From the IMG/VR virus record IMGVR_UViG_3300007960_003894, positions 1 to 26,636 of that record: a stretch of DNA of 26,636 bases, one strand, 5' to 3'. Below, one piece after another: positions 1 through 17,703 of this stretch. Numbering within the stretch: position 1 is the stretch's first letter; each line of letters opens with the position of its first letter. The DNA comes from a virus. Made by a program: the position numbers and the translations under genes. The notes beneath the pieces were generated by a model. The model was given only the letters and a program-made list of their open reading frames with translations, had not been told where the DNA came from and searched no databases.

Positions 1-818
1 GGCAAGAGCAAGGTGCTGGTACTTGGAACTATGTTTCAACAGACCAAACACTTACAGGTGGACAAACTTATTATATTGATATGTGGTGGTATGAAAACGG
101 TGGTGGCGCAGCAGTTAAGTTATATTGGGATCAATCAGGATCAGTTGCATTGGTGCCTAGCTCGGCATATTCATTGACCGATCCTAGTGCATCTTCACCA
201 ACACCATCATATTCTTCTGGTCCAACTTCTGCACAACAAACAAGAATAAACACTGCTATTTCTAATGCTATTACAAGTGGTGAGGGGTCAAAGGTAGACG
301 TAGATGTTACAGGAAATGACAATACTATTTACATTGATCAGGCAGGTGAACCGAGTTATTTACTATTAGATGTAATAGGTAATACAAACATAGTCGACAT
401 TGATCAGGACGCAACTGGCACTACTGGTTATGGTCATTATTCAGAGGTGCTTATAGATGGTGACAGAAACGATTTAGATTTACTTCAATCAGGTGCTGGC
501 AACAAAGCTGCATTTGTAGATATCGATGGTAATGATAATGTGTTAGACATCATACAAAAAGAAGGTGGCAGTCACTATCTACAACTTGATTTAATAGGTG
601 ATGATCACAATGCAAACGTATTACAAGAGGGATCTGGCAATCATGCAGCAACAGTAGAACTGACAAACAGTGGCGGTGGTTGGGACTTTGATTTAATACA
701 AAGTGGTAATACCAATAAAACATATAGTCTACCGCATAGCATGAGTGATGGAACCACTACTAGTGGAACTTGCTACAACGTGTCAGGGTGCACTTTAAGC
801 GTTACGCAAGGCGACTAA
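1..818 (+). CDS. Structural/adhesin-like protein, C-terminal part (PA14-like end plus curlin-like repeats), 5' partial
   Basis: The reading frame is open from base 3 to the TAA at 816-818, so the gene starts outside the window. An internal ATG at 81 is not the true start: the upstream codons continue the same fold. The first ~60 visible residues, including GGQTYYIDMWWYENGGGAA and LYWDQSGSVALVPSS, resemble the end of a PA14 carbohydrate-binding beta-barrel. A Ser/Pro/Thr linker follows, then about six 22-24-residue repeats with a G-N-D-N...I/L-x-x-Q-x-G core, resembling curlin (CsgA) repeats. The C-terminus has two close cysteines and ends LSVTQGD. PA14 domains in phage structural proteins usually bind glycans, so a role in host adsorption is inferred. 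No enzymatic motif is visible. The N-terminal part is needed to tell a tail fibre from another virion protein. Confidence 0.75.
   Translation, partial: QEQGAGTWNYVSTDQTLTGGQTYYIDMWWYENGGGAAVKLYWDQSGSVALVPSSAYSLTDPSASSPTPSYSSGPTSAQQTRINTAISNAITSGEGSKVDVDVTGNDNTIYIDQAGEPSYLLLDVIGNTNIVDIDQDATGTTGYGHYSEVLIDGDRNDLDLLQSGAGNKAAFVDIDGNDNVLDIIQKEGGSHYLQLDLIGDDHNANVLQEGSGNHAATVELTNSGGGWDFDLIQSGNTNKTYSLPHSMSDGTTTSGTCYNVSGCTLSVTQGD
285..716 (+). repeat. Curlin-like protein repeats (about six copies)
   Basis: Within the first gene, six imperfect 22-24-residue units can be aligned on a core of hydrophobic strand, turn with G-N-D-N or G-D-x-N, second strand ending I/L-x-x-Q, then G-x-G/N. Examples are DVTGNDNTIYIDQAG, DIDGNDNVLDIIQKEGG and DLIGDDHNANVLQEGSG. 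The strand-turn-strand pattern with conserved Asn and Gln resembles curlin repeats and predicts a small beta-solenoid. The repeats are diverged in DNA and are a protein-level feature only. Confidence 0.6.
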
Positions 819-1302: not shown

Positions 1303-1455
1303 ATGAAGTACAAGTTGGTCTCATACAAAAATTATGGTTTTAACACAACTGTATACTTTTATAGAGATGTATCGACAAACGTTATGGTGTCGCCATTCTT
1401 TGAATCTAAAGAAGAAGCAGAGGAATGGTTAAAAAAAGAAAAGGAAACGGAATGA
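1303..1455 (+). CDS. Small hypothetical protein, 50 aa
   Basis: A short gene begins one base after the preceding stop (MKYKLVSYKNYGFNTTVYFY...) and ends EEWLKKEKETE. GAGG lies in the end of the previous gene (1293-1296), at a plausible spacing. Its TGA at 1453-1455 overlaps the next ATG (ATGA), which is typical of translational coupling in this operon. The sequence is an aromatic, beta-prone N-terminal half (Y/F/V-rich) followed by a charged helix with SPFFESKEEAEEW, a common arrangement in small phage proteins. No signal peptide or membrane segment; predicted cytoplasmic. Function unknown. Confidence 0.65.
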   Translation: MKYKLVSYKNYGFNTTVYFYRDVSTNVMVSPFFESKEEAEEWLKKEKETE

Positions 1456-1760
1456 AATACTTAGGATTATTATTGCTGTTCTTTGCATTTACAGCACAAG
1501 CAGATGATTCACCTTATTGTTTGACCAAAGCTCATTTAGCAAGAGACATGGCATCACAAATTCTTCAAGGATTAGATCCAAGCAAAATTAACTTTGCATT
1601 TCCTAATGTAAGAAGTCCAGAGGAAGCAAAGAAAGCACAAGAGTTTGCCGATAAACTTATGGCAGAAGTGCTAGAAATGATAAAAACTGAAGATGATACT
1701 AGAGTGATATATGAAACCGTGAAAGCAAAATGTAATGAATCAATTAGCGACGCTATCTAA
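1452..1760 (+). CDS. Predicted secreted protein, 102 aa
   Basis: Start chosen at the ATG in the ATGA overlap with the previous gene, with AAGGAAACGG just upstream. It gives a canonical signal peptide (MKYLGLLLLFFAFTAQA, cut before DD). A longer in-frame start at 1425 would put a basic extension before the signal. The mature part (~85 aa) is mostly helical, with one cysteine near each end (SPYCL and KAKCNES), which could tie the termini by a disulfide. Family not recognised. The 3' end overlaps kdsA by 26 nt in another frame. A periplasmic location is inferred. Confidence 0.75.
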   Translation: MKYLGLLLLFFAFTAQADDSPYCLTKAHLARDMASQILQGLDPSKINFAFPNVRSPEEAKKAQEFADKLMAEVLEMIKTEDDTRVIYETVKAKCNESISDAI

Positions 1761-2538
1761 CGATAAAGAAATACAATTCATACTTGGTCCATGTCAAATA
1801 GAAAGCTATAATCATACTTTGTTTTTGGCATCGGAAATTAAAAAGATATGTAATAAATTAAATGCGAAGTTTATCTTCAAATCGAGTTTTGATAAAGCAA
1901 ACAGAACTAGTATTAATGGTAAACGTGGTCTTGGAATGGAAGAGGGATTAACTGCTTTATATGCATGTAGGCATGCGTATGGTGTTCCTGTTCTAACTGA
2001 TATACACGAACCATGGCAAGCAGAAAGAGTAGCAGAAGTTGTAGATGTAATACAAATCCCTGCTCTCTTGTCACGACAAACTGATCTACTTATTGCTGCA
2101 GGTAAAACTAAAAAGATTGTAAACGTAAAGAAGGGGCAGTTTATGTCACCCTTTGATATGAAGCACGTTGTCGATAAAATCAAATCTACAGGAAATGATA
2201 ACATTTGGTTAACAGAGCGTGGAACGTTTTTTGGTTATAACAATCTAGTGAATGACATGCGTGGTTTAGTTCAGATGCGTGAAAGTAATTGTCCTATAAT
2301 CTTTGATGCAACACATAGCGTACAGTCACCAAGTGGTCAAGGTGATAGTAGTGGTGGGGATAGAACTATGGTTCCTCACTTAGCACGTGCAGCAACTGCG
2401 ATAGGAATAGCAGGGTTGTTTATGGAAGTTCATAACGATCCTGATAACGCAGCAAGTGATGGACCAAACTCAGTAAGATTAGATAATTTAGAAGATATAC
2501 TAAAATCAATAATAAAAATTGACAAGGCAGTGAAATGA
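1735..2538 (+). CDS. kdsA: KdsA, 3-deoxy-D-manno-octulosonate 8-phosphate synthase (class II, metal-type)
   Basis: KdsA condenses phosphoenolpyruvate with D-arabinose 5-phosphate to make KDO 8-phosphate, the precursor of the KDO sugar of lipopolysaccharide; it is cytoplasmic. The 267-aa protein is near full length and shows the family motifs in order: GPCQIES (17-24), KSSFDKANRTS (49-59), TDIHEPWQAE (88-97), IPALLSRQTDLL (108-119), KKGQF (132-136), ERGTFFGYNNLV (161-172), DATHSVQ (191-197), FMEVH (229-233), SDGPNS (241-246). Residues matching the metal ligands of the Aquifex-type enzyme are present: Cys20, His194, Glu231, Asp242. The metal-independent E. coli type has Asn at the Cys position. 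The gene overlaps both neighbours, and its TGA overlaps the cyclase ATG. All visible catalytic motifs are intact, so it is probably active. The related DAHP synthase is less likely given KANRTS and the overall match. Confidence 0.92.
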   Translation: MNQLATLSNDKEIQFILGPCQIESYNHTLFLASEIKKICNKLNAKFIFKSSFDKANRTSINGKRGLGMEEGLTALYACRHAYGVPVLTDIHEPWQAERVAEVVDVIQIPALLSRQTDLLIAAGKTKKIVNVKKGQFMSPFDMKHVVDKIKSTGNDNIWLTERGTFFGYNNLVNDMRGLVQMRESNCPIIFDATHSVQSPSGQGDSSGGDRTMVPHLARAATAIGIAGLFMEVHNDPDNAASDGPNSVRLDNLEDILKSIIKIDKAVK

Positions 2539-4604
2539 AAAAACTATTATCACCATATTGGGCACTGATAACTCTTGCGTTGCTCACGTTTGTGTTTTTA
2601 CAAAAACCAAACTTCACGGAAAGTATAAAATTAAATTATTTCGATTCGTTGATTACTTCTCGTGATGCAGTAGAAAATAATATCTACACAGCAAACATTG
2701 ACGAACAAGCACTAGAGAAATACGGGCAGTATCCGTTTCCGCGAGACGTGTATGCTTCTATCATTGAAGATTTGTATAACAGTGGTGCTGGTTTAGTTAT
2801 ATGGAATATTATGATGCCTGAGGCAGATCGCTTCGGTGGTGATGAACAACTGTCTGCAACGATGACGGAATATCCTGTTATCTTAGCAAGCAGACCGAGT
2901 GATAAAACAAAGAACGAACCAGTAAATCCAGGTGCAGTAATCATTAATGACAACTATCTTGATACATTATTACCTTATGCTGGAATCATTGCTAATATTC
3001 CTATCTTAGAAAACTCCTCAGTTGGTGCTGGTATTGTATCTACTGAACCAGAAATAGACGGTGTGAATCGTAGACTACCTACAGTTGCCGTAGTTGACGG
3101 TGTATTGTATCCCAGTTTAGCATTAGAAACTTTGCGTATAATCGCAGGCGATCCTAGTTTTCAAATTAAACTATCTCCACTTGGTATCGATAAGATGCGT
3201 GTTCCTCAGTTTGGACCAATCACTACAGATGCTGAAGGTAGAGTTTGGATAGATTGGGCACAACGCAGTAAGTCATTCTCCGTATCAGATATGCCTGAGG
3301 ATATCGGTGGCGCAGTGGTTATTGTCGATGTGACTGCTGCAGGTATCGCTAATCCAGTTCCTACACCTATGGGTGCGATGTTCCCTGCTGAGATACAAGC
3401 ATCTATGTTAGGAACTATGTTCAATCAGACTAACATCGAACGACCCTATTGGGCAGAGAATATAGAGATCCTAGGACTCTTTTTAGCGTCACTGACGCTT
3501 ATTATCGTTTCACGATGGATATGGGTAGGGTTAGGACTAACTGTGGTTCTGGCTGCTTCTGTAGTCCCTCTGAGCATGTATTATTTCAATAAAAACCTCT
3601 TTTTACTGGATGCTACCGCTCCAACCATCACTATAATACTTGTTGCACTGCACACCTATGGTATCAAGTTCGTGCGTGAATATCTAGAGAAACAAGCAAT
3701 AAAGAAGCAATTTGCTGGATATTGCTCACCAGAGGTGGTGAAACTATTACAAGAAAATCCATCATTAGTTCAAGACGGTATCAAAAAAGACATTACTATT
3801 TGTTTCAGTGATCTACGAGGTTTCACGAATTTAGGTGAAAAGTATGGTGATGATGTAAAGGGTTTGACTGAAGTGATGAATGGTTATATGGATGCGATTA
3901 CGCAACCAGTGCTTGATGCAAATGGTATGGTGATTAAATATATTGGTGATGCATCAATGCATATACATAATGCACCGATGGATGATCCTAATCATGCATA
4001 TAATGCAGTTCAAACAGGACTAAATATGCTTTCTGCGGTTGATAAATACAATGAGTTTTTGGCAACCAAAGGAATACCTGAAGTCGGCATGGGTGCTGGC
4101 ATAAATTCAGGATTCGGATTTATTGGTGAGATGGGTTCAACTTCTCGCCATGCTTATGATGTGTTAGGTGATGCTGTAAGTACCACTGCAAGACTTGAGA
4201 GTCAATGTAAAAATTATGGCGTGTTATTAATTGTTGGTCCAGAAACATATGCAAGGACTAAAGATGATTTCTTTTATTTGAAACTTGATGATTTAGCAGT
4301 AAAGGGTAAGTCGTATGGTCTAGATATCTATACGGTGTTGCGAGGGAAGAAAGGTGATACATTTTCTTGGGGCAATCACTATATGGTAGATTGGGCTGCT
4401 GATAAAGAACTGCACGATCAAATGCATAATCTTTATCGATTGAAAGATTTCCAAATAGCCATTAGTGTATGTAATAAATTAAAAGGTTCATTTGATGGAC
4501 AAATGGATTCTTATTATGATATGTGGATTGAACGATGTGAGTTTATGAAGACGCAAAAACTTCCAAAAGATTGGAATGGCGTATTTGTAGCCACAACGAA
4601 ATGA
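2535..4604 (+). CDS. CHASE2-domain class III adenylate/guanylate cyclase, membrane-bound
   Basis: A 689-aa receptor-type cyclase. Order: N-terminal TM helix (~7-22); extracytoplasmic CHASE2 sensor (~27-300, with PFPRDVYASIIEDL and VSTEPEIDGVNRRLP); three TM helices (~311-328, 330-349, 356-376); short linker; class III cyclase domain (~415-605); ~85-aa C-terminal tail. Metal aspartates are Asp426 (CFSDLRGFT) and Asp472 (KYIGDA). The substrate-selecting pair Lys468 and Asp542 (AYDVLGD) is the adenine-type pair, so ATP to cAMP is favoured. Arg553 is kept, but the usual Asn seven residues after Asp542 is Ser549. Length and topology fit complete bacterial CHASE2 cyclases. It overlaps kdsA by 4 nt and the next gene by 4 nt. 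Expected in the inner membrane. Whether it is active, and its ligand, cannot be read from sequence. Confidence 0.93.
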   Translation: MKKLLSPYWALITLALLTFVFLQKPNFTESIKLNYFDSLITSRDAVENNIYTANIDEQALEKYGQYPFPRDVYASIIEDLYNSGAGLVIWNIMMPEADRFGGDEQLSATMTEYPVILASRPSDKTKNEPVNPGAVIINDNYLDTLLPYAGIIANIPILENSSVGAGIVSTEPEIDGVNRRLPTVAVVDGVLYPSLALETLRIIAGDPSFQIKLSPLGIDKMRVPQFGPITTDAEGRVWIDWAQRSKSFSVSDMPEDIGGAVVIVDVTAAGIANPVPTPMGAMFPAEIQASMLGTMFNQTNIERPYWAENIEILGLFLASLTLIIVSRWIWVGLGLTVVLAASVVPLSMYYFNKNLFLLDATAPTITIILVALHTYGIKFVREYLEKQAIKKQFAGYCSPEVVKLLQENPSLVQDGIKKDITICFSDLRGFTNLGEKYGDDVKGLTEVMNGYMDAITQPVLDANGMVIKYIGDASMHIHNAPMDDPNHAYNAVQTGLNMLSAVDKYNEFLATKGIPEVGMGAGINSGFGFIGEMGSTSRHAYDVLGDAVSTTARLESQCKNYGVLLIVGPETYARTKDDFFYLKLDDLAVKGKSYGLDIYTVLRGKKGDTFSWGNHYMVDWAADKELHDQMHNLYRLKDFQIAISVCNKLKGSFDGQMDSYYDMWIERCEFMKTQKLPKDWNGVFVATTK

Positions 4605-8119: not shown

Positions 8120-8431
8120 TTATGTAGCGAATGACTTTCCACAACCACAGGTCGCTGTTGCGTTTGGATTCTTTATAGTAAACTGAGCATTGAGACCATC
8201 GTCCTGATAGTCTACTGTGCATCCTTGAAGATACTGCATACTCATAGAGTCTATAATAAGGTTATCGACTTCGAAGTCATCCTCCTCTGCCTTCTCCTCA
8301 AACGTGAACCCATAGTTGTAACCAGAACAACCGCCACCTGTAATGAATAATCTAATTTTCATTGTGGTCAAAGATTGCTCTAGTGCAATGTCAGAGATTT
8401 TCTTTTTTGCTGCTTCTGTAAGTTCTATCAT
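8120..8431 (-). CDS. A-type iron-sulfur cluster carrier (IscA/ErpA/HesB family)
   Basis: Carries Fe-S clusters to target proteins in the cytoplasm. The 103-aa length is normal for the family. It has the N-terminal ELTEAAKKKI helix, GGGCSGYNYGF with Cys35, and CGCGKSF with Cys95 and Cys97: the three conserved cluster cysteines. Cys71 (LQGCTVDY) is extra. The middle DSMSMQYLQGCTVDY matches the usual 'D..s...l.G..vDy' segment, with the common L/F-x-G-x-x-I/V-D-Y core. The ATG overlaps the stop of the 812-aa tail gene (ATGA), so it is expressed with late structural genes. HesB-like genes are known in marine T4-like phages; their target is not established. Confidence 0.93.
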   Translation of the reverse strand: MIELTEAAKKKISDIALEQSLTTMKIRLFITGGGCSGYNYGFTFEEKAEEDDFEVDNLIIDSMSMQYLQGCTVDYQDDGLNAQFTIKNPNATATCGCGKSFAT

Positions 8432-10866
8432 GGCAATACCATATCTGGTTTTATACCAGTTTGATTTATTCTCCTCGGAGAAACTGGCATTGTATACGAA
8501 CTACTACTTGACGCACTGGTAGAATTATCTACAACTGTATTGCTGTTATCAACCATCACTACTCCATTTCGAGATTGTGCCTGTGATGCAGATATAGAAT
8601 TTACCGCACTACCTCCAGCCGATGCTGAACCAGTTCTAGACGGACCAATACCACCACCACCACCTTGACTCATAACACCAATGCCATAATACTCACTGGA
8701 CTTACTTCCATAAGCATCTTGTTTGACATTACCAGCTTTTAGTTGTGCTGCACCACCTGCCCCAACTAAGTGTGCTGCAGCAAGAAATCCCGCAACCTCT
8801 TCTGGACTAGACTGATTATCAATAACCTTTTTGCTTTTCAAATATCCTATTTGTTTATTGGTATATTTTCTCATAGCATCTTCTTGCATAGCAGGATTTC
8901 TTAGAAACTCTTCCTTGCTACCCTTCAACCAATTTTTAGGATCATTTAATGCTTTGTTACTGTTAACACCTGACTTCACATATCCTGCATCTTGTAATGC
9001 CATAGCACCCATTTGGTACATACCCAAATATCCTATGGTATTTTCAGCACCATAATCGCCACTACTTTCTCGTATACCTATTGCAGTTTTATATGAAGCG
9101 TAATCAAATCCACCAGAACTAGAAGAGGATGTAACTTGACCGCCAGTAACTTTCGGTTGAGGTTTATTCAACATTCCTTGAGTTAGTGTACCTGCTGCCA
9201 AAGCAGCTACTGCTGCATCACCACCTAATCCTTGTACTTGTTTTACGAACTGACCCATTGCGGCACCGTCGCCAGTTTTTTGTGCTGCAATAAATCCTTC
9301 TTGTAATGTAGTCGCAGTATCTTTAATTATTGTTGGATCGCCACCAATACCAGTTGACATATTGAGTGCTTTTTGTACTAGCAATTTATCCGAATCTCGT
9401 AAATCGTCATGAGCAAGAATTCCTCTAAGTTCACCTTGGGTTAACTCACCAAGACGCGATGCATCAATCTCACTCTTTCCAATATAATCGTGGTCATATA
9501 TACCTTTATCGATAGCAGATTTTAAAGCAAGTTTTTCATTTAATTGTTTTTCAAATTCTTTTGCTTGCGCATCAAATCTATCATCCGCTTCATTGAAACT
9601 ATCTTCTGCAGCCTTGAGTGATCGAAGTAATGATTCACCTGCAGTGCCACCAGCATCTTCAATTAATTTAACTTGTCTAGCAATCTCGTTATATTCATCT
9701 GCAGCAGATTGTCTTTGCTCAAATAGTTTTTGAACAGTAGCCTGTTCAATAGTCGCTGAATCTAAAAATTGTTTTTCACGCATCAACTTATCTTTTTCTA
9801 GTTGATATTCTTTCTCACTCATATTACTTCTGTCAGCTTCTAATGCTGCAAGATTTGCTGCTAATCCTTCTTTTCTTGCTATTAAACTCTCACTAGATTG
9901 TATAAACTCTTTATCGAAATTAGGGTCAAAGTAATCACCGATCCAACCCCCAACCATATTACCTAATGACGCACCAAGTACTGCACCCATTGGTCCACCA
10001 ACAATACCAATTGCTCCACCAATAGCACCACCAATCAACCCACCAAGATCTTCACCTTGTAATTCAGTTTCAATTTTATCATCTAATTCAGCAGAGAAAA
10101 GATCATATCCATCTTTAATGTTGACCGCAAGTGATTCTACAATTGCTACAGGTGGAAAAACTCTAGCAAGTATTTTTGATGCTTTGCTAGCATCTAATGC
10201 TGTATCTGCAATCTTTCCAGCTTTAACTACATCATCTGCTACTGATCCAGATACCTTCCCTGTTTTGCCGCTTTTAATTTTTTCTTCAAGAATTTTTTGT
10301 TCTGCATCTGCTAGTTTTTTAAATCCATTTTGAGATTTTTGTGAAGCTTTGCTATTTGCCAGTCTTTCCTTTGTATCAGCCTTTAATTGTTTCTGGGACG
10401 CTTTTTGTGCTTCAGTAAGCTTTTTAGTTTTTTTAGTAAGATCATCTACAGCATCTGCTGCTTTAGGTGTCTTTGTAAAAAATTTCTTTATTTGATTGAG
10501 ACCAAATGCGCCACCAACAGCAGTAGTAACAGCTTTAGCGATAAAAGATCCAATACCACCTCCACCAGATTCACCATCACCATTACCACCAGTGGTAGCA
10601 CCGACACTAGCACCTGCTAACTTTTGTCTCCGAAGTTGTCGCATTCTTTCTCGACGTGCTTCATCTTCTGATTGGTAGTATTCACTATGAAGTTCGTAAG
10701 TCTCATCTAACCAACTTTCAACTCTACCCAATATTTGAGTTTGGTTATCTAGTTTATCACCGATATCACTAAATCCACTCTTCATCTTTGACGAGAGTTG
10801 AGATTGATTTTTTAGAGACTTTTCTTGATATTCTTTAGTCTTCGAATTAAAAAATGGTAGTGCCAT
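8428..10866 (-). CDS. Large tail protein with C-terminal peptidoglycan-hydrolase domain; tape-measure candidate
   Basis: An 812-aa protein. Order: N-terminal helical segment with basic RRERMRQLRRQKLAG (~71-85); Gly-rich stretch; Lys/Ala-rich helical region (~140-235); glycine-zipper hydrophobic segment (~274-310); long charged helices (~320-450); Ser/Gly linker; lytic transglycosylase-like domain (~586-730) with IGIRESSGDYGAENT (candidate catalytic Glu600), GYLGMYQMGAMALQDAGYV and a helical remainder; then a low-complexity Gly/Ser/Asn tail. The ESSGDYG...GYLG.YQ.G motif is typical of SLT-like domains in phage tail proteins. It follows a gp51-like gene, in the part of the T4 tail cluster that in T4 holds 27, 28 and the tape measure 29. 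Length and glycine zipper would suit a tape measure ejected into the envelope, but a baseplate hub lysin is possible. The gp5 here has no lysozyme, so this is the likely cell-wall opener. Confidence 0.7.
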   Translation of the reverse strand: MALPFFNSKTKEYQEKSLKNQSQLSSKMKSGFSDIGDKLDNQTQILGRVESWLDETYELHSEYYQSEDEARRERMRQLRRQKLAGASVGATTGGNGDGESGGGGIGSFIAKAVTTAVGGAFGLNQIKKFFTKTPKAADAVDDLTKKTKKLTEAQKASQKQLKADTKERLANSKASQKSQNGFKKLADAEQKILEEKIKSGKTGKVSGSVADDVVKAGKIADTALDASKASKILARVFPPVAIVESLAVNIKDGYDLFSAELDDKIETELQGEDLGGLIGGAIGGAIGIVGGPMGAVLGASLGNMVGGWIGDYFDPNFDKEFIQSSESLIARKEGLAANLAALEADRSNMSEKEYQLEKDKLMREKQFLDSATIEQATVQKLFEQRQSAADEYNEIARQVKLIEDAGGTAGESLLRSLKAAEDSFNEADDRFDAQAKEFEKQLNEKLALKSAIDKGIYDHDYIGKSEIDASRLGELTQGELRGILAHDDLRDSDKLLVQKALNMSTGIGGDPTIIKDTATTLQEGFIAAQKTGDGAAMGQFVKQVQGLGGDAAVAALAAGTLTQGMLNKPQPKVTGGQVTSSSSSGGFDYASYKTAIGIRESSGDYGAENTIGYLGMYQMGAMALQDAGYVKSGVNSNKALNDPKNWLKGSKEEFLRNPAMQEDAMRKYTNKQIGYLKSKKVIDNQSSPEEVAGFLAAAHLVGAGGAAQLKAGNVKQDAYGSKSSEYYGIGVMSQGGGGGIGPSRTGSASAGGSAVNSISASQAQSRNGVVMVDNSNTVVDNSTSASSSSSYTMPVSPRRINQTGIKPDMVLP

Positions 10867-10875
10867 AGTTGACTC

Positions 10876-11046
10876 TTATCTTTTTTGGTTATTGAGTTCT
10901 TCTATATCTTGTAAATGTTGTTTCAATAAAGTTACATACACGTCTCGTTCAAACGGTATCATGTTTTCTAGTTCTGTCAATGAATACTTATGATGATGGA
11001 TCAAAGCAAAATTCATCTGATACATGTTTATCAAACTTTCATGCAT
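10876..11046 (-). CDS. Small baseplate-hub assembly protein, gp51-like
   Basis: A 56-aa frame starting in a TGATG overlap with the gp26 stop: MHESLINMYQMNFALIHHHK then YSLTELENMIPFERDVYVTL. The 'hhkYs..ele.M.PfErd.Yv.lL' pattern recurs in short proteins of tailed phages near the tape measure or hub genes, and in T4 gene 51 (hub assembly) follows gene 26. No cysteine or membrane segment. It ends 9 nt before the 812-aa tail protein. Assignment as gp51-like rests on the pattern and position, not on a confident alignment; a tail-assembly chaperone is the alternative. Confidence 0.6.
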   Translation of the reverse strand: MHESLINMYQMNFALIHHHKYSLTELENMIPFERDVYVTLLKQHLQDIEELNNQKR

Positions 11047-11747
11047 CAGACCAACATAAAAAAATCTTTGAGTCCCTCCACCAACGCATAATCTTTTTGT
11101 TTACACTCCTCGCAGTCCCATTCCATCAAATGACTTAACGATGGACCATCAGTAAAGAATGCTAATATCTTTTCAAACTGATCTTTATTTAAATGATCCA
11201 ACCATTCATCTAATTCTTCTGTAGTAAACTCATCATAAACATTTTCACTATCGTAAATATATTCAACATTATCTTTCACCATAGCAAATAGATTTGAAGC
11301 AGTTCTTTCCATCATCTTTTCATCACTGTAGGTCGGATATGTTAGTTTGATTCCGATGCTATCACCCAATTCAATCTTACCATCACTCACGCTACCAGTA
11401 ATCGATAAATCTTCAATGTCGAATACATATTTTGTTTTTGCTTTGCATTCATTATCACTATTGTGACTGAGAATCATTTCTATTTGCTCACCCACCGACT
11501 TCGATCTTATTTGCATAAACAACCATTCGACATCAAATGTTGATAGTTTGTCTACATCAATACCTTTAGTCAATATACAATTTTTTAATAAATCTTTAAC
11601 CGCACCGATGATTGTTTCTTTTTCTCCATCTTCTAATGCAATTAAAAGTATCTTTTCTTCTTTTACTAAAAACGGTCTATATTTTATATTTTTATTTGTA
11701 GATGGTAATTTAGTCTTAAACTCAGGTACAGATAATGTAGGTAACAT
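11046..11747 (-). CDS. 26: gp26-like baseplate hub protein
   Basis: A 233-aa protein of the T4 baseplate gp26 family, needed for hub assembly. The start is the ATG at 11747 with GGAG eight bases upstream; a TTG two codons earlier is not preferred. The N-terminus with PEFKTKLPSTNKNIKYRPFL and VKEEKILLIALE is the hallmark of the family ('lPstgk...yRPFlvkeEK.LLiA.e'). The C-terminus has CEECKQKDY...LKDFF, a two-cysteine knuckle followed by the usual FF ending. Slightly longer than T4 gp26 (208 aa). It lies between the tube-fold protein and the gp51-like gene, a T4-like 26-51 order. Confidence 0.88.
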   Translation of the reverse strand: MLPTLSVPEFKTKLPSTNKNIKYRPFLVKEEKILLIALEDGEKETIIGAVKDLLKNCILTKGIDVDKLSTFDVEWLFMQIRSKSVGEQIEMILSHNSDNECKAKTKYVFDIEDLSITGSVSDGKIELGDSIGIKLTYPTYSDEKMMERTASNLFAMVKDNVEYIYDSENVYDEFTTEELDEWLDHLNKDQFEKILAFFTDGPSLSHLMEWDCEECKQKDYALVEGLKDFFMLV

Positions 11748-11775
11748 TCTCAATCTCCATAATTAAATTATTTTT

Positions 11776-12468
11776 TTATTGTCCAGATGCTAATCCTGTA
11801 AACACTCTAGTTGATGGGCTAAGGGTTGATGCTTCTCTTTGGTCTATTCCAATCAGTATAGGTTTATTTGGATCGCGTGGATCAACAACGATTTCTTCAT
11901 TTTCTTCATTTTCTTCTTCGTGTGTTGTTATATTATAATAACGATGCGCAAACTGCAATGAAAGTTTAGCGAGACTGTCGTCACCCCAACCCATTTGTAC
12001 ACCATTCATAATAATAGGATATGAATCAACAAGTTCTATTGTAGTTCTTAATTTTCCTGTGTCATCAAACTGCCTTATATAAACATTTGATTTATAATTA
12101 TCAAAATATTTTACATTGAACGATCCACCAAATCCTTGTGGAGTTGTATCTATCATACTTTGCATCCACTTTTCAAAAAATATCTTTTCACCCATATTTG
12201 CACTTAATAAAAATGTAATCGTTACATCTGAATGCACTGCAGCATAAGGAACTTTATTAACTGGACCATTCATGGAGAATCTTTGATCTATTGTCATTGC
12301 TGTTCGACCAGGAATTTCAACACTATCTGCTCTATATGTTAGATTTCTTATTTCCTCTGGATCTAAATTAAATGCAGATGGTGGACTAATCAAAACCTCA
12401 AAGTGTGAAGTCTTAGCAACTCCACTTTTAAGTCCATCACTAATCATTTTTCTTATGTTGAATGCCAT
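11776..12468 (-). CDS. Tail-tube-fold baseplate protein, probably tube initiator (gp54-like)
   Basis: A 230-aa protein with the tail-tube (gp19/gp54) look. It opens with KTSHFEVLISPP, then RADSVEIPGRT, VPYAAVHSDVTITFLLS, FFEKWMQSMID and a last strand pair IELVDSYPIIMNGVQMGWGDDSLAKLSLQFAHRYY, comparable to the T4 gp19 ending with DAFP..V..I.LDW and TFQYSYW. An acidic stretch (EEENEENEE, ~186-194) and a short tail are added. The placement among baseplate hub genes, away from any sheath gene, favours gp54 (starts tube polymerisation on gp48) over the major tube protein gp19. TAATG overlap with the gene before. Confidence 0.6.
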   Translation of the reverse strand: MAFNIRKMISDGLKSGVAKTSHFEVLISPPSAFNLDPEEIRNLTYRADSVEIPGRTAMTIDQRFSMNGPVNKVPYAAVHSDVTITFLLSANMGEKIFFEKWMQSMIDTTPQGFGGSFNVKYFDNYKSNVYIRQFDDTGKLRTTIELVDSYPIIMNGVQMGWGDDSLAKLSLQFAHRYYNITTHEEENEENEEIVVDPRDPNKPILIGIDQREASTLSPSTRVFTGLASGQ

Positions 12469-13058
12469 TAGATTGCCCTTCTTGAGTCTCTATAAACTCT
12501 TTGTGTGCTTGCCTTTTCAAATCTTTGCGTTGGTAGCATTAGTGCTATATCCCATTCGGTTGCTGGCACGTTATAAAATCTAGATCTAACATTTGAAGCA
12601 AGGTAATGTTTGAATGTTGGTTTAAACAATCTAAATTTTGAAGCACCTTGTAATGTTTCATATGATAGTCTAAGTTTTGTTGTTCTGTCGTATTTTTTAT
12701 TTGATACAATACCATAAAGATTATCCATCAACTTTGCTCGTAATACTGGTGGTAGATAATGTAAGTTTATACCATAGAAACCACCTGATGCTGGACCAAC
12801 CATAAAAATCAAAGGAAACCTGTCATAGTATGGTAGTGTTTTCTTGCCTTTAGGGTCATAGAAAAAATGATACATTTTACCTACCGTTGGAGATGCTCTT
12901 AAATCTTTATCATCAGCATTCGATAATATCTTATCAGGATTTGCACCTGCCGTTCGTTTAGCAGCTCTTCTAAACCAATCGCGTGCTTCTTGGCTTCGAG
13001 CAGGTGTTTGACCAGCACGAAGTCCTCTTGTTAATATGTCGTCGAATAAGGTTGCCAT
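12468..13058 (-). CDS. Conserved phage protein, possible virion/packaging factor, 196 aa
   Basis: Not firmly recognised. The N-terminal third is basic (TRGLRAGQTPARSQEARDWF, AAKRT). The core has GKMYHFFYDPKGKKTLPYYD, RFPLIFMVGPASGGFYGINL and HYLPPVLRAKLMD. This 'lPyyD.fPl...........G..G.N.HYLpp..R' signature is seen in many marine T4-like phages. The rest is Arg/Lys/Tyr-rich with FKPTFKHYLASNVRSRFYNV and ends EWDIALMLPTQRF plus a basic tail. In T4 the gene next to 4 is gene 2 (DNA end protector), so that role is a possibility from order and basic charge only. Five bases after gp4; TAATG overlap with the tube-fold gene. Confidence 0.55.
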   Translation of the reverse strand: MATLFDDILTRGLRAGQTPARSQEARDWFRRAAKRTAGANPDKILSNADDKDLRASPTVGKMYHFFYDPKGKKTLPYYDRFPLIFMVGPASGGFYGINLHYLPPVLRAKLMDNLYGIVSNKKYDRTTKLRLSYETLQGASKFRLFKPTFKHYLASNVRSRFYNVPATEWDIALMLPTQRFEKASTQRVYRDSRRAI

Positions 13059-13062
13059 GATA

Positions 13063-13500
13063 CTATTTAGTCTTCTTGCCGAATAATTGTTCTTCAGTTA
13101 ACACCTGAAATTTCCAGTTTCTATCTTTACAATAACGAACCGCTGCTTCCCACTTTGCTTGATTAACTCCCCAAGTGGTCACCTCGTTAATGTATTTCTT
13201 TGTGACACGACTCTTTTTCTCTGGAGGACGAGACTGTGCTGCAGGTTTTACTTCAAATACAACTATCTCACCTTTGCTAGTCTTAACAATGAAGTCTGGA
13301 AAATATCGATGTTTTTTGCCGTCGATAGGAGATCGATAGGGTATGGCAAACTCTTCACTGCCCCACCATATTATGTCTGGATTCTTATCAAAGTATGAAC
13401 ACACATTTAGTTCCCAAGAACTGCGATATATAATATTGGTTGGATCGCCTTTATACTTCTCAGGAAACTTTGGTTTAAACCTACCTTGATGATACTTCAT
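13063..13500 (-). CDS. 4: gp4, head completion protein (PD-(D/E)XK nuclease fold)
   Basis: Completes DNA-filled heads before tail joining. The ATG at 13500 gives 145 aa with the family start MKYHQGRFKPKFPEKYKGDP and then TNIIYRSSWE, close to T4 gp4 (KYRGDPKKITYRSNWE). A GTG eight codons upstream is possible but would put the start within the promoter region. Nuclease-like residues are visible: Glu30 (RSSWEL), Asp69 (RYFPDF) and Glu83-x-Lys85 (FEVKP), forming a PD...ExK motif, and the C-terminal KFQVLTEEQLFG. First gene of the minus-strand late cluster. T4 gp4 is sometimes numbered 50/65. Confidence 0.92.
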   Translation of the reverse strand: MKYHQGRFKPKFPEKYKGDPTNIIYRSSWELNVCSYFDKNPDIIWWGSEEFAIPYRSPIDGKKHRYFPDFIVKTSKGEIVVFEVKPAAQSRPPEKKSRVTKKYINEVTTWGVNQAKWEAAVRYCKDRNWKFQVLTEEQLFGKKTK

Positions 13501-13508
13501 ACAATCTG

Positions 13509-13516
13509 TATAAATA
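13509..13516 (+). promoter_or_regulatory. T4-type late promoter TATAAATA (gp48 cluster)
   Basis: An exact match to the T4 late box, 37 nt before the gp48 ATG. A ribosome site AAAGGTG (13542-13548) lies between. It would start the plus-strand baseplate run beginning with gp48 and gp53. It also overlaps the region just upstream of gp4. Confidence 0.8.
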
Positions 13517-13531
13517 GTTAACACAAAAATC

Positions 13532-13539
13532 TATTTATT
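13532..13539 (-). promoter_or_regulatory. Late promoter box AATAAATA (gp4 cluster)
   Basis: On the minus strand AATAAATA matches seven of eight bases of TATAAATA and lies 31 nt before the gp4 ATG. Together with the plus-strand box 15 bp away it forms a divergent pair for the two late clusters. Confidence 0.6.
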
Positions 13540-13553
13540 ACAAAGGTGTATAA

Positions 13554-14594
13554 ATGTCTGCAGCGATGAAGCGAGAAGGTAGAATAGGAGATGGATCTTT
13601 CTATTACTTTTTCCCCCAAGAAGTCACCAATCAAAACTACATGATGCTTCAAGTGTTGGAAAAATCTCGTGACGATAAGTTTGAGGTTCAAGAAGGCAAA
13701 TCAGTTGGTCGTGTTTTCATTTTTCCAATCCCTGCAAATCTATCAGTTGCTTCTAAAACGGATTACGAAAACAAGGGTCTTGGGATTCTAGGCGCATTGG
13801 GCGCAGGACGACTTAACACCACAGGAGCATTAGATGATGTTAGTTCTGCTCTTATGAATGGTGCTTCTGATGTATTTGATGGTAAGGGTTTAGATACGGG
13901 GGATGGCACACAAACAGGATTAGCAATTGGTGCAGTAGGACTAGCGTCTTTTGCTGCTTCAAAAATAGGTAAGAAATTAAAACTTGATGGATTGGCAATT
14001 GGTGGTCTTGCTGGTGCTACAGCTGGTGCAACAGTAGTTGAATCATTAGGACTAAAAGCAGGACTTGCGGTAAATCCACATCTTGCTGTTTTGTTTAAGG
14101 GAGTTGGATTAAGAACATTTGCATTCCAATATAAATTTGTTGCTAGAAATCAACAAGAATCTAATCAACTGCGTGACATAATAAAAAAACTAAACTACCA
14201 CATGCATCCAGATTATTTTGCTGGAAACTTTGCATTTAAATATCCAGATGAGTTTAGAATAGAGTTTTCACAAAATAGAAAAGATTGGTTATTTAATCTT
14301 AAAGATTGCGTAATGACAGATATGACTGTTAATTATAATGGAGAAGGTATGCCATTGTTTTTTGAAGATGTTGGTGGTCCAGTTTCTATTGATATTTCAA
14401 TGTCATTTCAAGAGACTAAGATATTTACAAAACGTGATTATGCTGAAGACTATGAAGTGGAAAGAGATCCTGAGAAACAAGTAGAACCAGAACCGATGAA
14501 ATTTAATGGAAGATTAATTCAGACACCAGAAGAGATAGAGCAAGAACGTCGACAAGATGTAGCAACGGAAGTTGCGCGCTCATTCTTATTATAG
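13554..14594 (+). CDS. 48: gp48-like baseplate tail-tube cap
   Basis: A 346-aa protein (T4 gp48 is 364 aa) that caps the hub and starts the tail tube. The second half carries the recognisable part: NPHLAVLFKGVGLRTFAFQY then KFVARNQQESNQLRDIIKKL, HMHP, and FAFKYPDEFRIEF, NLKDCVMTDMTVNYNGEGMP, SIDISMSFQETKIFTKRDY. The 'LR.F.f.fkf.pRn..E...ir.Ii...k..mhP' pattern is typical of gp48 and contractile-tail tube caps. A Gly/Ala-rich hydrophobic insertion (~77-175) separates the N-terminal strands from the core. ATG follows AAAGGTG and a late promoter. gp53 follows after 11 nt. Confidence 0.8.
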   Translation: MSAAMKREGRIGDGSFYYFFPQEVTNQNYMMLQVLEKSRDDKFEVQEGKSVGRVFIFPIPANLSVASKTDYENKGLGILGALGAGRLNTTGALDDVSSALMNGASDVFDGKGLDTGDGTQTGLAIGAVGLASFAASKIGKKLKLDGLAIGGLAGATAGATVVESLGLKAGLAVNPHLAVLFKGVGLRTFAFQYKFVARNQQESNQLRDIIKKLNYHMHPDYFAGNFAFKYPDEFRIEFSQNRKDWLFNLKDCVMTDMTVNYNGEGMPLFFEDVGGPVSIDISMSFQETKIFTKRDYAEDYEVERDPEKQVEPEPMKFNGRLIQTPEEIEQERRQDVATEVARSFLL

Positions 14595-14605
14595 GAGATT
14601 AATCA

Positions 14606-15181
14606 ATGAGTAATTATTTTTCATATTTTCCCACTACTGAACATGACCTAACTAATATTGGTCAGACGGTTAATCTTACTAATATTATTAGAAGGTTCAA
14701 AGTAAAAAGTTCTTTGTTTACAGATACACGTGCCTATCATGAATATTCTGTACGAGCAGGCGAAAGACCTGACATCGTAGCAGATAAGTTTTATGATGAT
14801 CCTAGTTACGCTTGGTTAGTTTTATTGTTCAACGAGATTGACGATCCAATATTTGGATGGCCACTATTCAACAAAGAGTTTGACGATTACATCATAGGTA
14901 AATATGGTAGCATACCAAACGCACAAGGCACTGTTCATGAGTATCGCAAGGTGTTAACTGAAAAATCAGTTAAGTTTGATGGAACTATTATTGGAAAAAG
15001 AACAGTCACCATAGATTTAACAACATACAATACATTAGGTGAATCTGTGAGAGAATCAATATCAAAGTATGACTATGAAGAAGAACTAAATGATAAGAAA
15101 GCAGAAATAAAAATATTAAAACCAAGATATGTCTCAGAAGTGCGAAAACAGGTTCAAGGTATTTTAAAAGATGGCATCTGA
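14606..15181 (+). CDS. 53: gp53, baseplate wedge protein
   Basis: gp53 joins baseplate wedges around the hub. The 191-aa length is close to T4 gp53 (196 aa). The visible hallmark is the LysM-like core YHEYSVRAGERPDIVADKFY and DDPSYAWLVLLFNEIDDPIF then GWPL, comparable to T4 ...YYIKGSPRPEELANAIYGNPQLYWVLLMCNDNYDPYYGW. The start has AGGAG 10 nt upstream. Its end overlaps the gp27-like gene by 11 nt. In T4, gene 53 follows gene 4; here 4 is divergent and 48 lies between. Confidence 0.88.
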   Translation: MSNYFSYFPTTEHDLTNIGQTVNLTNIIRRFKVKSSLFTDTRAYHEYSVRAGERPDIVADKFYDDPSYAWLVLLFNEIDDPIFGWPLFNKEFDDYIIGKYGSIPNAQGTVHEYRKVLTEKSVKFDGTIIGKRTVTIDLTTYNTLGESVRESISKYDYEEELNDKKAEIKILKPRYVSEVRKQVQGILKDGI

Positions 15182-16526
15182 TGGATATAGACATGCTGGG
15201 GATGTTGAGGTAGAATCTGCAACACTGATACTTTCTAATCAACAGGTTATTGATATATCAGAACTTGTTGCTGAAACCAACATATACCAAGACTTATTTA
15301 ATCACTATATCGAAGCAGATTTTGTGATGAATGACTCTTTCAACCTTTTTGCGCAGGGATGTTCTGGCACAGAGATAGTAGAAATATCATTTAGAAATAA
15401 AGTTGGTCCAGAAGCTTCACCACAACCAGAATTTATTCGTCATGTTTTCTTTGTCTATGAAATTACAGATAAGCAAAGGATATCTGAATTTAAAGAAGCA
15501 TATATTATGAATTGTATTAGTTTTGAAAGATATCAGACGATTCCAGAAAAGATTAGTCGATCATATGGACCGTCATCTATCAAAGACATGGTGCAAAAAA
15601 TAAATTCTGAATTTATCTATAATGATTCTGCTAAAACTTTCTATAGAGAACTTTCTAAAATAACAAATTATACTAAAACAAAAGAAGGTATATTTGATGA
15701 GACAAGTGGGCAGTTTCAATATGTCATACCAAATATGGTGATAGATGATGCAATAGATTTCTTATCTAGTGAATCAGACTCTAACGACCATATACCATTT
15801 TATACTTTCTATGAAGACGCAAATGGATTTAATTTTAGAAATATTTCTAATTTAATATCACAACCTATCGCTGCAACTTATCATCATTTGCCCACAAAAA
15901 CTGATGCACTAGAAAGAGATGCAATTAACGATAGACAGAATGACTCTGCGCAAAACTTTGATGACACATTTAAAATTATATCGTATAATGTAGTCAAACA
16001 AAATAATATATTACAAAATACAAACTCTGGGATGTATAAAAGTAAATCAATAGATATTGATATTCATCGAAGAAAAGCAAACATTTCAACATTTGACTAT
16101 GATAAGTATTCTGACAAGTTTAAGTTTATTCAAAATAAAATTTTAGGTGGATCAGATGGATCGCCTGTAATTTCTTTAGGAACTAGTAGAAAAGGTCATG
16201 AATCTGATAAGTTGTTGTCCGTAGAAAATCATCTACCAAAAAGAACAGATCAAACCAAACCAATTACTGATAGTTACAAAAGATCTATATTTAATGTTGT
16301 AATGGAAGTAATAGTTCCAGGGAGTGATACAATAATTATTGGTCAGATGATCGAACTGATGTTTTATCGTACAATTGGTGATGAAGTAAGGTTAGATGAG
16401 TACGATAAATATCTCAGTGGAAAATATTTAATCACCAAAGTTCGTCAAAAACTTACTGGGGCGAAAACAGGTGTTGACTATGTAACTGTAATAGAATGTA
16501 CCAGAGATGGTATAAAAGAAGACTAA
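15171..16526 (+). CDS. 27: gp27-like baseplate hub protein
   Basis: A 451-aa protein with the look of the hub ring that gp5 sits on (T4 gp27, 391 aa; phage gpD/VgrG-N family). The N-terminal beta domain runs DVEVESATLILSNQQVIDIS, IYQDLFNHYIEADFVMNDSF, then GCSGTEIVEISFRNK and RHVFFVYEITDKQRISE, EAYIMNCISFERYQTIPEKI. A middle IPNMVIDDAIDFLSSES...FYTFYEDANGFNFRN is the typical second domain where a helix is followed by 'f.f.e...g..Fr'. It ends with strands (YLITKVRQKL, DYVTVIECTRDGI). It directly precedes gp5, a T4-type functional pair. Start overlaps gp53. Confidence 0.82.
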   Translation: MASDGYRHAGDVEVESATLILSNQQVIDISELVAETNIYQDLFNHYIEADFVMNDSFNLFAQGCSGTEIVEISFRNKVGPEASPQPEFIRHVFFVYEITDKQRISEFKEAYIMNCISFERYQTIPEKISRSYGPSSIKDMVQKINSEFIYNDSAKTFYRELSKITNYTKTKEGIFDETSGQFQYVIPNMVIDDAIDFLSSESDSNDHIPFYTFYEDANGFNFRNISNLISQPIAATYHHLPTKTDALERDAINDRQNDSAQNFDDTFKIISYNVVKQNNILQNTNSGMYKSKSIDIDIHRRKANISTFDYDKYSDKFKFIQNKILGGSDGSPVISLGTSRKGHESDKLLSVENHLPKRTDQTKPITDSYKRSIFNVVMEVIVPGSDTIIIGQMIELMFYRTIGDEVRLDEYDKYLSGKYLITKVRQKLTGAKTGVDYVTVIECTRDGIKED

Positions 16527-16537
16527 AGGAGAAAGAA

Positions 16538-16717
16538 ATGCCATTACCAGATTCAAAAAGAGCAAAACAAATGCTTGCAGAAATCGTAACTAACGAAGCA
16601 CCAACACCAAAGCGAACACGCAGAACTGCTACGGTAACAGAATCTACTATTAGACCTGCGTTTTTGCAAGAGGTTGTAGAACCAGAAAATCAAATCCCAG
16701 AGGATGACGCTGAGTAA
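16538..16717 (+). CDS. Small hypothetical protein, 59 aa
   Basis: The ATG at 16538 follows AAAGGAG (16525-16531) and gives MPLPDSKRAKQMLAEIVTNE, then a basic Thr/Arg-rich stretch (PKRTRRTATVTEST) and an acidic end (EVVEPENQIPEDDAE). A longer frame from 16496 overlaps the gp27-like gene and lacks a ribosome site. Likely unstructured apart from the first helix. It lies between the two hub genes, so it could be an adaptor or chaperone for the hub or spike; family not recognised. Confidence 0.6.
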   Translation: MPLPDSKRAKQMLAEIVTNEAPTPKRTRRTATVTESTIRPAFLQEVVEPENQIPEDDAE

Positions 16718-16719
16718 AT

Positions 16720-17703
16720 ATGCGTGAGTTTATTGGTAGAAAAGGTTTCACGTGGTTTGTTGGAGTTATAGAGGATAGAAATGATCCTGTAAAACTTGGA
16801 CGATTGCGTGTACGATGCTTTGGTTGGCATACTGAAGACAAGGGACAAATCCCAACGGATAAACTTCCTTGGGCGATGCCGATGAATAGCATTAACTCAG
16901 CACAAACTAACAACATCGGAACATCACCGACAGGATTAGTTGAAGGTGCTTGGGTTATAGGATTCTTTTTAGATGGTGATCGTGCGCAAGAACCTGTTGT
17001 TATGGGAACACTTGCTACTATTCCTTCCGAGTTGGCAAATACTCAGGAAGGATTCTACGATCCCAACGGAAAGTATCCACAGGTGATTGATGAACCTGAT
17101 GTAAACCGTCTATCAAGAAACGATAGTGATAAACCTCATGATGTGCTTGCTAGTAAAGAAAGTGGAAGAACAACAAATGTCACCATAGCAAATGGTGGTG
17201 GTGTTTGGAATGAACCTGTTTCAGCATACAACGCAACGTATCCCTACAATCATGTAAGGGAAACTGAGTCAGGACACATCAAAGAGTTTGATGATACTTC
17301 AGGCAACGAGCGTATACACGAGTATCATAAGAGTGGTACATTCTATGAGGTTCAACCTGATGGAACTAAAGTGACTCGTGTGGTTGGAGAAAACTATACG
17401 ATTGTTGCTAAAGGCAATGATGTAAATATAAAGGGCAACTGCAATCTAACGATTGATCAAAACTGCACTACTTACATTAAAGGCAACTGGGATATACAGG
17501 TTGATGGAAATAAAACAGAGGTTGTAAAAGGTAATGTTGTAGAATCATATGCTCAAGATCAAGGAAGCATACATGCAACCGTAGTTACTGGTTCTAGAAC
17601 CGTAAATGTTTCAGATAATGTAACAGAAGTTGTTGGTGGATACTCTATATTAAATGTAACCAAAAATTATGATGTCGATGCACTAAGAATTGATCTGAAC
17701 TAA
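16720..17703 (+). CDS. 5: gp5-like baseplate spike without lysozyme domain
   Basis: The central spike that pierces the outer membrane. The N-terminal OB fold (FTWFVGVIEDRNDPVKLGRL then RVRCFGWH, PWAMPMNS, EGAWVIGFFLDGDRAQEPVV) matches T4 gp5N and VgrG spikes. The C-terminal part (~215-327) is a repetitive beta-helix: YTIVAKGNDVNIKGNCNLTI, TTYIKGNWDIQVDGNKTEVV, then further G-N and N-V repeats. The T4 lysozyme domain that sits between the two is absent, explaining 327 aa against 575 in T4. The middle has HVRETESGHIKEFDDTSGNE and RIHEYHKSGTFYEVQPDGT, the usual bridging strands. It follows a hub gene and is followed by a 65-aa gene and the PAAR tip. Confidence 0.92.
   Translation: MREFIGRKGFTWFVGVIEDRNDPVKLGRLRVRCFGWHTEDKGQIPTDKLPWAMPMNSINSAQTNNIGTSPTGLVEGAWVIGFFLDGDRAQEPVVMGTLATIPSELANTQEGFYDPNGKYPQVIDEPDVNRLSRNDSDKPHDVLASKESGRTTNVTIANGGGVWNEPVSAYNATYPYNHVRETESGHIKEFDDTSGNERIHEYHKSGTFYEVQPDGTKVTRVVGENYTIVAKGNDVNIKGNCNLTIDQNCTTYIKGNWDIQVDGNKTEVVKGNVVESYAQDQGSIHATVVTGSRTVNVSDNVTEVVGGYSILNVTKNYDVDALRIDLN

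Follow-up and report, generated by a model that had tools for sequence, protein, structure and literature searches.

Pelagiphages are known to carry a T8SS/curli module (HTVC008M gp014-gp019; Melnitz; PMC9599517, PMC7029224). In the accessible part of PMC9599517, this module is described as including a second curli repeat gene, a FecR gene and a cyclase gene, as being of alphaproteobacterial origin and as having spread ocean-wide; in the accessible parts of PMC7029224 and PMC9004378, csgF and csgG are described and csgA and csgB are taken to be missing. The reason why phages carry curli genes is debated: an uptake pore, a lysis timer and 'sibling capture' (proposed in PMC7029224) have been put forward, as has a superinfection shield (PMC9599517). 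The second curlin appears in the available text of the module papers (PMC9599517, PMC7029224) as a second CsgA/B or as a hypothetical protein. In the accessible text of PMC9599517, PMC7029224 and PMC9004378 the term 'PA14' does not occur, nor does 'lectin' in two of them; more generally, neither PA14, exchangeable tips, a Cys cap nor a curlin tail on FecR was found in the available parts of published accounts of the pelagiphage module. PA14–curlin fusions and the exchange of phage curlin tips were not found either in the literature searched, as far as its text was available (a scope that leaves outside most subscription papers and all preprints). While the module itself is thus already known, we found no earlier account, in the literature read, of the exchangeable tip on a Cys-capped chassis, of the DNA evidence for its exchange or of the curlin tail of FecR.

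Two other described systems bear comparison. In yeast flocculins (Flo1, Flo5, Epa1), too, the N-terminus is a PA14 lectin borne by a stalk of repeats; this stalk contains amyloid-core sequences and the proteins serve in cell adhesion, according to the accessible part of PMC8398270. Their stalk is unrelated, however, and their secretion and anchoring are different, so that they offer a working analogy at most, and we claim no shared ancestry of the whole proteins. The PA14 lectin of the Marinomonas primoryensis RTX adhesin (5j6y, 6x7j) has the same PA14 fold with a DcisD Ca/sugar motif (PMC8092209, accessible part), but it is bacterial rather than phage-borne and lies within a 1.5-MDa RTX adhesin, not a curlin.

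The DNA analysed here (the window) is the whole of record IMGVR_UViG_3300007960_003894, an IMG/VR virus fragment of 26,636 bases whose gene set is T4-like. In a comparison with 50,697 phage records, the closest counterparts of its baseplate wedge protein were those of HTVC008M (39.0%), Melnitz (36.1%) and Mosig (35.5%). The first ORF (3-818, +) runs in from beyond the contig start and encodes the C-terminal 271 residues of a PA14–linker–curlin protein. It is the 3' end of 'curlin2', the second curlin gene of a csgF-csgG-curlin1-FecR-curlin2-adenylate cyclase module. The signal peptide, the part of PA14 that carries the DDG motif, FecR and csgG/csgF would lie beyond the contig start, and for the window we infer them from relatives. 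What remains of the protein comprises the 3' part of the PA14 domain (3-172, about its last 57 residues), a Pro/Ser-rich linker with a predicted SAQQTRIN helix (184-275), an array of about 5.5–6 curlin repeats of ~23 residues (285-710) and a C-terminal Cys-pair cap that ends in psi-x-psi-x-Q (768-815; TCYNVSGCTLSVTQGD), the latter recognized by a regular expression over curlin2 proteins.

The preliminary description of this DNA, whose coordinates were correct, had reported curlin-like repeats, and had named beforehand a lack of curlin similarity in HMM searches as a possible refutation. Such similarity was found. The ORF belongs to Pfam family PF07012 (E=2e-8, 34.5 bits for a curated cut-off of 20.7, in three stretches), and the NCBIfam CsgA and CsgB models match it with E-values of 1.3e-9 and 2e-8; in the PDB, its sequence matches 8c50 (E 5.9e-9) and the major curlin subunit 8enq (E 0.003). 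The motif [N/D/H]-x-psi-x-psi-x-Q occurs five times in residues 91-245, with starts at 107, 129, 156, 179 and 202 (spacings of 22, 27, 23 and 23), a count reached in none of 20,000 shuffles (shuffled mean 0.24), and the five copies are followed by a sixth, degenerate half-repeat, WDFDLIQ, recognized by eye. The repeats resemble those of E. coli CsgA and CsgB in length (~23 residues), in their N-x-psi-x-psi-x-Q pattern and in their sequence and fold matches. Unlike these proteins, curlin2 scores far below the NCBIfam equivalog cut-offs (38.2 vs 160 bits for CsgA, 34.1 vs 165 bits for CsgB), its curlin part is acidic (27 D+E vs 5 K+R in 155 residues), the second strand of its repeats is less canonical, and it has an N-terminal lectin-type domain together with a C-terminal Cys pair.

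The PA14-like end was likewise borne out. Pfam PA14 (PF07691) does not match the ORF 3-818 fragment, since the contig retains only the last 57 or so residues of PA14. When a profile was made from the PA14 parts of phages other than the window, it recognized residues 1-61 in a search with the whole ORF (E 3.3e-23), and full-length relatives exceed the Pfam PA14 cut-off of 24 bits (L012, 37.8; L004, 40.1; HTVC008M, 27.7), with PA14 and curlin found by Pfam within one protein. All 12 phage PA14 parts examined contain DDG, at the position of the DcisD Ca/sugar motif of Ca-dependent PA14 lectins (PMC8092209, accessible part); the corresponding part is missing from the window. Stretches resembling PA14 with DDG were seen or suspected by eye in L129, L147 and L168 and, as Pfam did not confirm them, were left out of the PA14 counts.

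For a fold, we relied on a model of the full-length relative L012, of moderate confidence (mean pLDDT 67, pTM 0.44), in which a beta-sandwich (residues 26-170) is followed by a helix (199-213), to which the linker helix of the window corresponds, and by strands throughout residues 218-356. The beta-sandwich would be of the PA14 type. Indeed, Foldseek matched the model to the PA14 lectins of Marinomonas (6x7j, E 3.5e-7), Epa1 (4d3w, 1.2e-5) and Flo5 (2xjr, 7.9e-5), the top match being 6qdi, a domain of an anti-sigma-factor-domain protein (E 1.3e-7); with VIA-align, the MpAFP PA14 domain 5j6y gave a Z of 15.8. E. coli CsgA (8enq) aligned with residues 237-357 at Z 11.3, although an rmsd of 8.4 over 110 residues makes this match weak in detail. 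The repeats are predicted to form a solenoid-type structure, as had been suggested from the sequence, and the other refuting outcome named in the preliminary description, a non-solenoid fold, did not arise.

In relatives, the surroundings of the gene are those of the pelagiphage module. A tblastn search in phage records matched six records, namely HTVC008M (two entries) and four Melnitz isolates: the window protein is 30.2% identical to HTVC008M gp018 with 99% of the query covered, and 33.9% identical over 46% to the Melnitz proteins. The order is csgF-csgG-csgB-hyp-curlin2 homologue-cyclase in HTVC008M (hyp being a FecR annotated as hypothetical) and csgF-csgG-curlin-FecR-curlin2 homologue-adenylate cyclase in Melnitz, so that the window gene corresponds to the 'second Curli repeat' gene of the published module, as far as its accessible descriptions go. 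The order csgF-csgG-curlin1-FecR-curlin2-cyclase recurs in IMG/VR relatives. Where more than 4 kb was available upstream of curlin2 (99 of 115 cases), CsgG was found within 3 kb in 98/99 and CsgF in 99/99; where more than 2.2 kb was available downstream (95 of 115), a cyclase was found in 91/95, within 500 b in 58, at 0.5-2.5 kb in 24 and further away in 9. L002, a near relative of the window, has part of csgG, curlin1 and FecR upstream of curlin2.

In the window, curlin2 is followed by the CHASE2 class III adenylate/guanylate cyclase that characterizes the pelagiphage-type FecR/cyclase module and is its final gene (2535-4604, +; PF05226, E 8.2e-34; PF00211, E 1.2e-16). Inserted between the two are genes for two small predicted secreted proteins (852-1301 and 1452-1760, both +), neither with a Pfam, NCBIfam or PHROG match and with DNA ~90% and ~92-93% identical in L002/L003, respectively, and for KdsA, 3-deoxy-8-phosphooctulonate synthase (1735-2538, +; NCBIfam NF003543, 401 bits for a cut-off of 242; TIGR01362, 381.6 bits for a cut-off of 314). 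A gene of LPS core synthesis (KdsA being KDO-8-phosphate synthase) thus sits inside a phage curli module. In L012, about 6.3 kb of other sequence separates curlin2 from the cyclase (10822-17178), and the gap between these genes may therefore be a hotspot for cargo.

To describe curlin2 more widely, we examined 200 FecR loci, 163 of which had a downstream curlin2 candidate. These gave 124 distinct complete ORFs and, after removal of nine false ones (L108, L110, L114, L119, L120, L140, L163, L206, L208), 115 curlin2 proteins; for L047, the first ORF was replaced by the next one. The layout common to full-length relatives begins with a signal-like stretch and an N-terminal domain, continues with a linker centred on S-A-Q-x-T and with the curlin repeats, and closes with a Cys pair at the C-terminus. 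A signal-peptide-like start was scored in 122/124 relatives by a crude rule, which looks for a hydrophobic run and chooses the most favourable start codon, and the Cys pair was recognized by a regular expression in 108/115 proteins; the seven without it are a frame-broken fragment (L093, whose PA14–curlin gene is split over two frames), an over-long ORF (L121) and five short forms. The N-terminal position is occupied quite differently from one protein to another: 71 of the 115 have no domain there, 14 have a GIFT/ThuA-like domain, 13 have PA14, and the remaining 17 have F5/8C with ITD (6), F5/8C alone (2), ITD alone (2), NVSG (3), the L147-type (2) or another domain (2), where ITD, NVSG and L147-type are labels coined here for unnamed domains. 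Pfam found PA14 in 9 and F5/8C in 1 of a first set of 22, and F5/8C in 7 and PA14 in 1 of a second set of 22. The GIFT/ThuA-like label stands for 'Rossmann-like, tentative', because the Foldseek match is weak (5fms, E 1.2e-3), the model behind it has a mean pLDDT of 63 and Pfam gives no match. Note that a first phmmer clustering of the N-terminal parts merged PA14, GIFT and F5/8C through their low-complexity linkers and was abandoned in favour of specific profiles and fragments. Curlin2 is, then, a conserved Cys-capped curlin chassis with an exchangeable N-terminal domain.

The exchange can be read directly in the DNA, whose similarity breakpoints place the boundary between tip and chassis in the linker. 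The window is ~90% identical to L002/L003 from bp 184 to 1297 and 92-93% identical from 1452 to 4600; upstream of bp 184 it has no match to L002, which has a different tip. With L012, which has the same tip, the situation is the reverse: 177 of 180 bases (about 97%) are identical over bp 61-240, past which identity drops to about 35-43 per 60, the chassis being ~63% identical. Aligned by codons, the N-terminal part of the two is 95% identical (88% at third positions), the curlin part 65% (45%) and the cyclase 51% (34%). DNA matches of the window to ten other PA14 loci stop at bp 172-184. The curlin parts of HTVC008M (PA14) and L042 (GIFT-like) are 88% identical in nucleotides, while their N-terminal parts have no useful alignment (41%).

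A FecR tree agrees with this picture (111 rows; of the 'quick' kind, its branches supported by SH-aLRT values alone). Mapped onto it, tip class requires 24 changes, where the minimum possible is 4 and the shuffled mean 40.9; as FecR itself may recombine, these 24 changes measure the discordance between FecR and tip and not tip events alone. PA14 needs 10 changes for 12 rows, at least 9 of them forced by the starred branches, against a shuffled mean of 11.6 (32 of 500 shuffles were as low as 10), and its spread is thus nearly random relative to the neighbouring gene. The GIFT-like tip needs 9 changes for 14 rows. The tip is a cassette that has repeatedly been exchanged between phages, probably by recombination within the linker, akin to the swapping of tail-fibre tips.

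FecR, for its part, carries a piece of curlin. In each of 153 distinct and complete FecR ORFs from phages, the extreme C-terminus is psi-x-psi-x-Q, a curlin half-repeat (e.g. L016, 9560-10663), and the final I-x-I-x-Q is invariant in a 10-row alignment. This tail is a physical candidate for a link between the fibre and cyclase signalling. As to the cyclase, the residue that follows GDxV is Ser in the window protein and in 77 of 133 distinct phage cyclases, and Asn, which we take to be the catalytic residue, in 24 (e.g. HTVC008M); the other 32 fall outside the pattern. Judging from these residues, it is possible that catalysis is altered or lost in the cyclases with Ser.

We think it reasonably likely that curlin2 is a secreted, amyloid-anchored, lectin-tipped curli subunit found on the surface of the infected cell and not in the virion. 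Its signal peptide would send it through Sec to the periplasm, from which the phage CsgG/CsgF pore would export it; the curlin array would then fold as a beta-solenoid and stack on curlin1, as in an amyloid, and through this stacking the N-terminal domain, here a PA14 lectin-type domain that may bind sugars, would be displayed outside. The purpose would most likely be either to bind cells or particles nearby, which would help progeny to reach hosts, or to shield the infected cell. That phages keep swapping a lectin-type tip points to the recognition of something outside this cell. The presence of both curlin genes in the operon answers the objection that pelagimyophages and Melnitz lack fibre subunits, and the debate becomes testable as a question about the binding target of each tip.

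Besides the truncation of the window at bp 1 and the moderate confidence of the model, several points count against a displayed lectin. CsgG probably lets chains through in an unfolded state, so that a folded N-terminal domain of ~150 residues would need to lose its fold for export or else be left behind. The tip is not essential, as shown by the 71 of 115 curlin2 proteins without one. Finally, Melnitz caused no clumping in cytograms or TEM, according to the accessible part of PMC9004378, although Melnitz curlin2 has no tip domain. A wider reading, that T4-like phages of aquatic bacteria display self-made curli on infected cells, with swappable recognition tips (among them PA14, F5/8C and GIFT-like ones) on an unchanging chassis with a Cys cap, coupled to the CHASE2 cyclase via a FecR ending in a curlin half-repeat, and that the tips aim the cell rather than the virion, is one that we put forward more tentatively, as somewhat short of probable.

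The difficulty of exporting a folded domain could be turned into an explanation: the curlin array would thread through CsgG while the bulky N-terminal domain stays in the periplasm, anchors the base of the fibre and reports to FecR and to the CHASE2 of the cyclase. As any folded domain would suffice, this would account for the several unrelated types found at one position; the half-repeat of FecR, being universal in our set (153/153), makes a periplasmic or pore-side link plausible, and CHASE2 is a sensor. We nevertheless consider it unlikely, because most curlin2 proteins (71/115) would have no stopper, and because neither the DDG kept in 12/12 PA14 parts nor the use of known carbohydrate-binding folds (PA14 and F5/8C) is needed by a mere stopper. 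Less probable still, and to our mind quite doubtful, is the proposal of the Melnitz authors (PMC9004378, accessible part) that CsgGF is a gated pore or a pinholin that times lysis, in which case the curlins would be regulators or leftovers. The available text of that paper states that csgA and csgB are lacking, yet in the Melnitz GenBank record two genes of this very operon are annotated as curlins, curli repeat genes are reported in pelagiphages of the same type (PMC9599517, accessible part), and the recurrent exchange of tips favours a function outside the cell.

A virion-type protein serving as a stalk or tail-tip spacer, as first suggested for this ORF, is very improbable and was rejected: PA14 and beta-solenoid parts are known from phage fibres, but curlin2 lies in a curli secretion operon (in HTVC008M, Melnitz and the IMG/VR relatives) and outside tail and baseplate gene blocks, its relatives have signal-peptide-like starts, and no PHROG family matches the window ORF or the curlin2 of L012 or L002. 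What stands of the preliminary description is PA14, curlin, the predicted solenoid and, as the possibility it was offered as, an amyloid-like surface role; the observation was sound, the virion reading is unsupported, and it is the exchangeable tip that merits further attention.

Finally, we looked for bacterial counterparts of the lectin-tipped curlin. The ORFs of 80 CsgG loci on bacterial genome contigs, out of 296 confirmed relatives, gave no PA14 or GIFT profile match. In samples of 289, 274 and 295 genomes from three bacterial classes, no one ORF combined PA14 and curlin matches: a PA14–curlin profile matched 8, 8 and 7 genomes, and each of the matches listed was confined to one of the two parts, PA14 or curlin. 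As the genomes searched are samples, the fusion may exist elsewhere. Four loci in bacterial bins (L258, L263, L267, L271) do have the module with a Cys-capped curlin; since L267 and L271 lie amid T4-like replication genes, as seen by eye, we read all four as phage contigs in bacterial bins. On a 705-kb contig of Hyphomonas TMED17 (L269), a csgF-csgG-curlin-FecR-CHASE2 cyclase cluster, with neither curlin2 nor the FecR curlin tail, contains the sole bacterial FecR of the module type found in our searches; among 105 genomes of its family, TMED17 alone matched the FecR profile at E 1e-20, over positions 13-265 of the 380 in the profile. This cluster is a possible donor form.

A few further observations concern the distribution of the module and the rest of the window. 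The phage-type module occurs on several of L256-L263, L267, L271 and L297, which are MAG contigs labelled Rhodobacteraceae, Flavobacteriaceae, Sphingobacteriales etc., and FecR or cyclase relatives occur on contigs of 200-350 kb, a jumbo-phage size (L098, L113, L141, L165, L179 and others). In the window itself, a gene for an A-type iron-sulphur carrier-like protein is found at 8120-8431 (-; PF01521, E 7.6e-15) and a TnsA-like endonuclease N-terminal domain is encoded at 13063-13524 (-; PF08722, E 6.2e-23).
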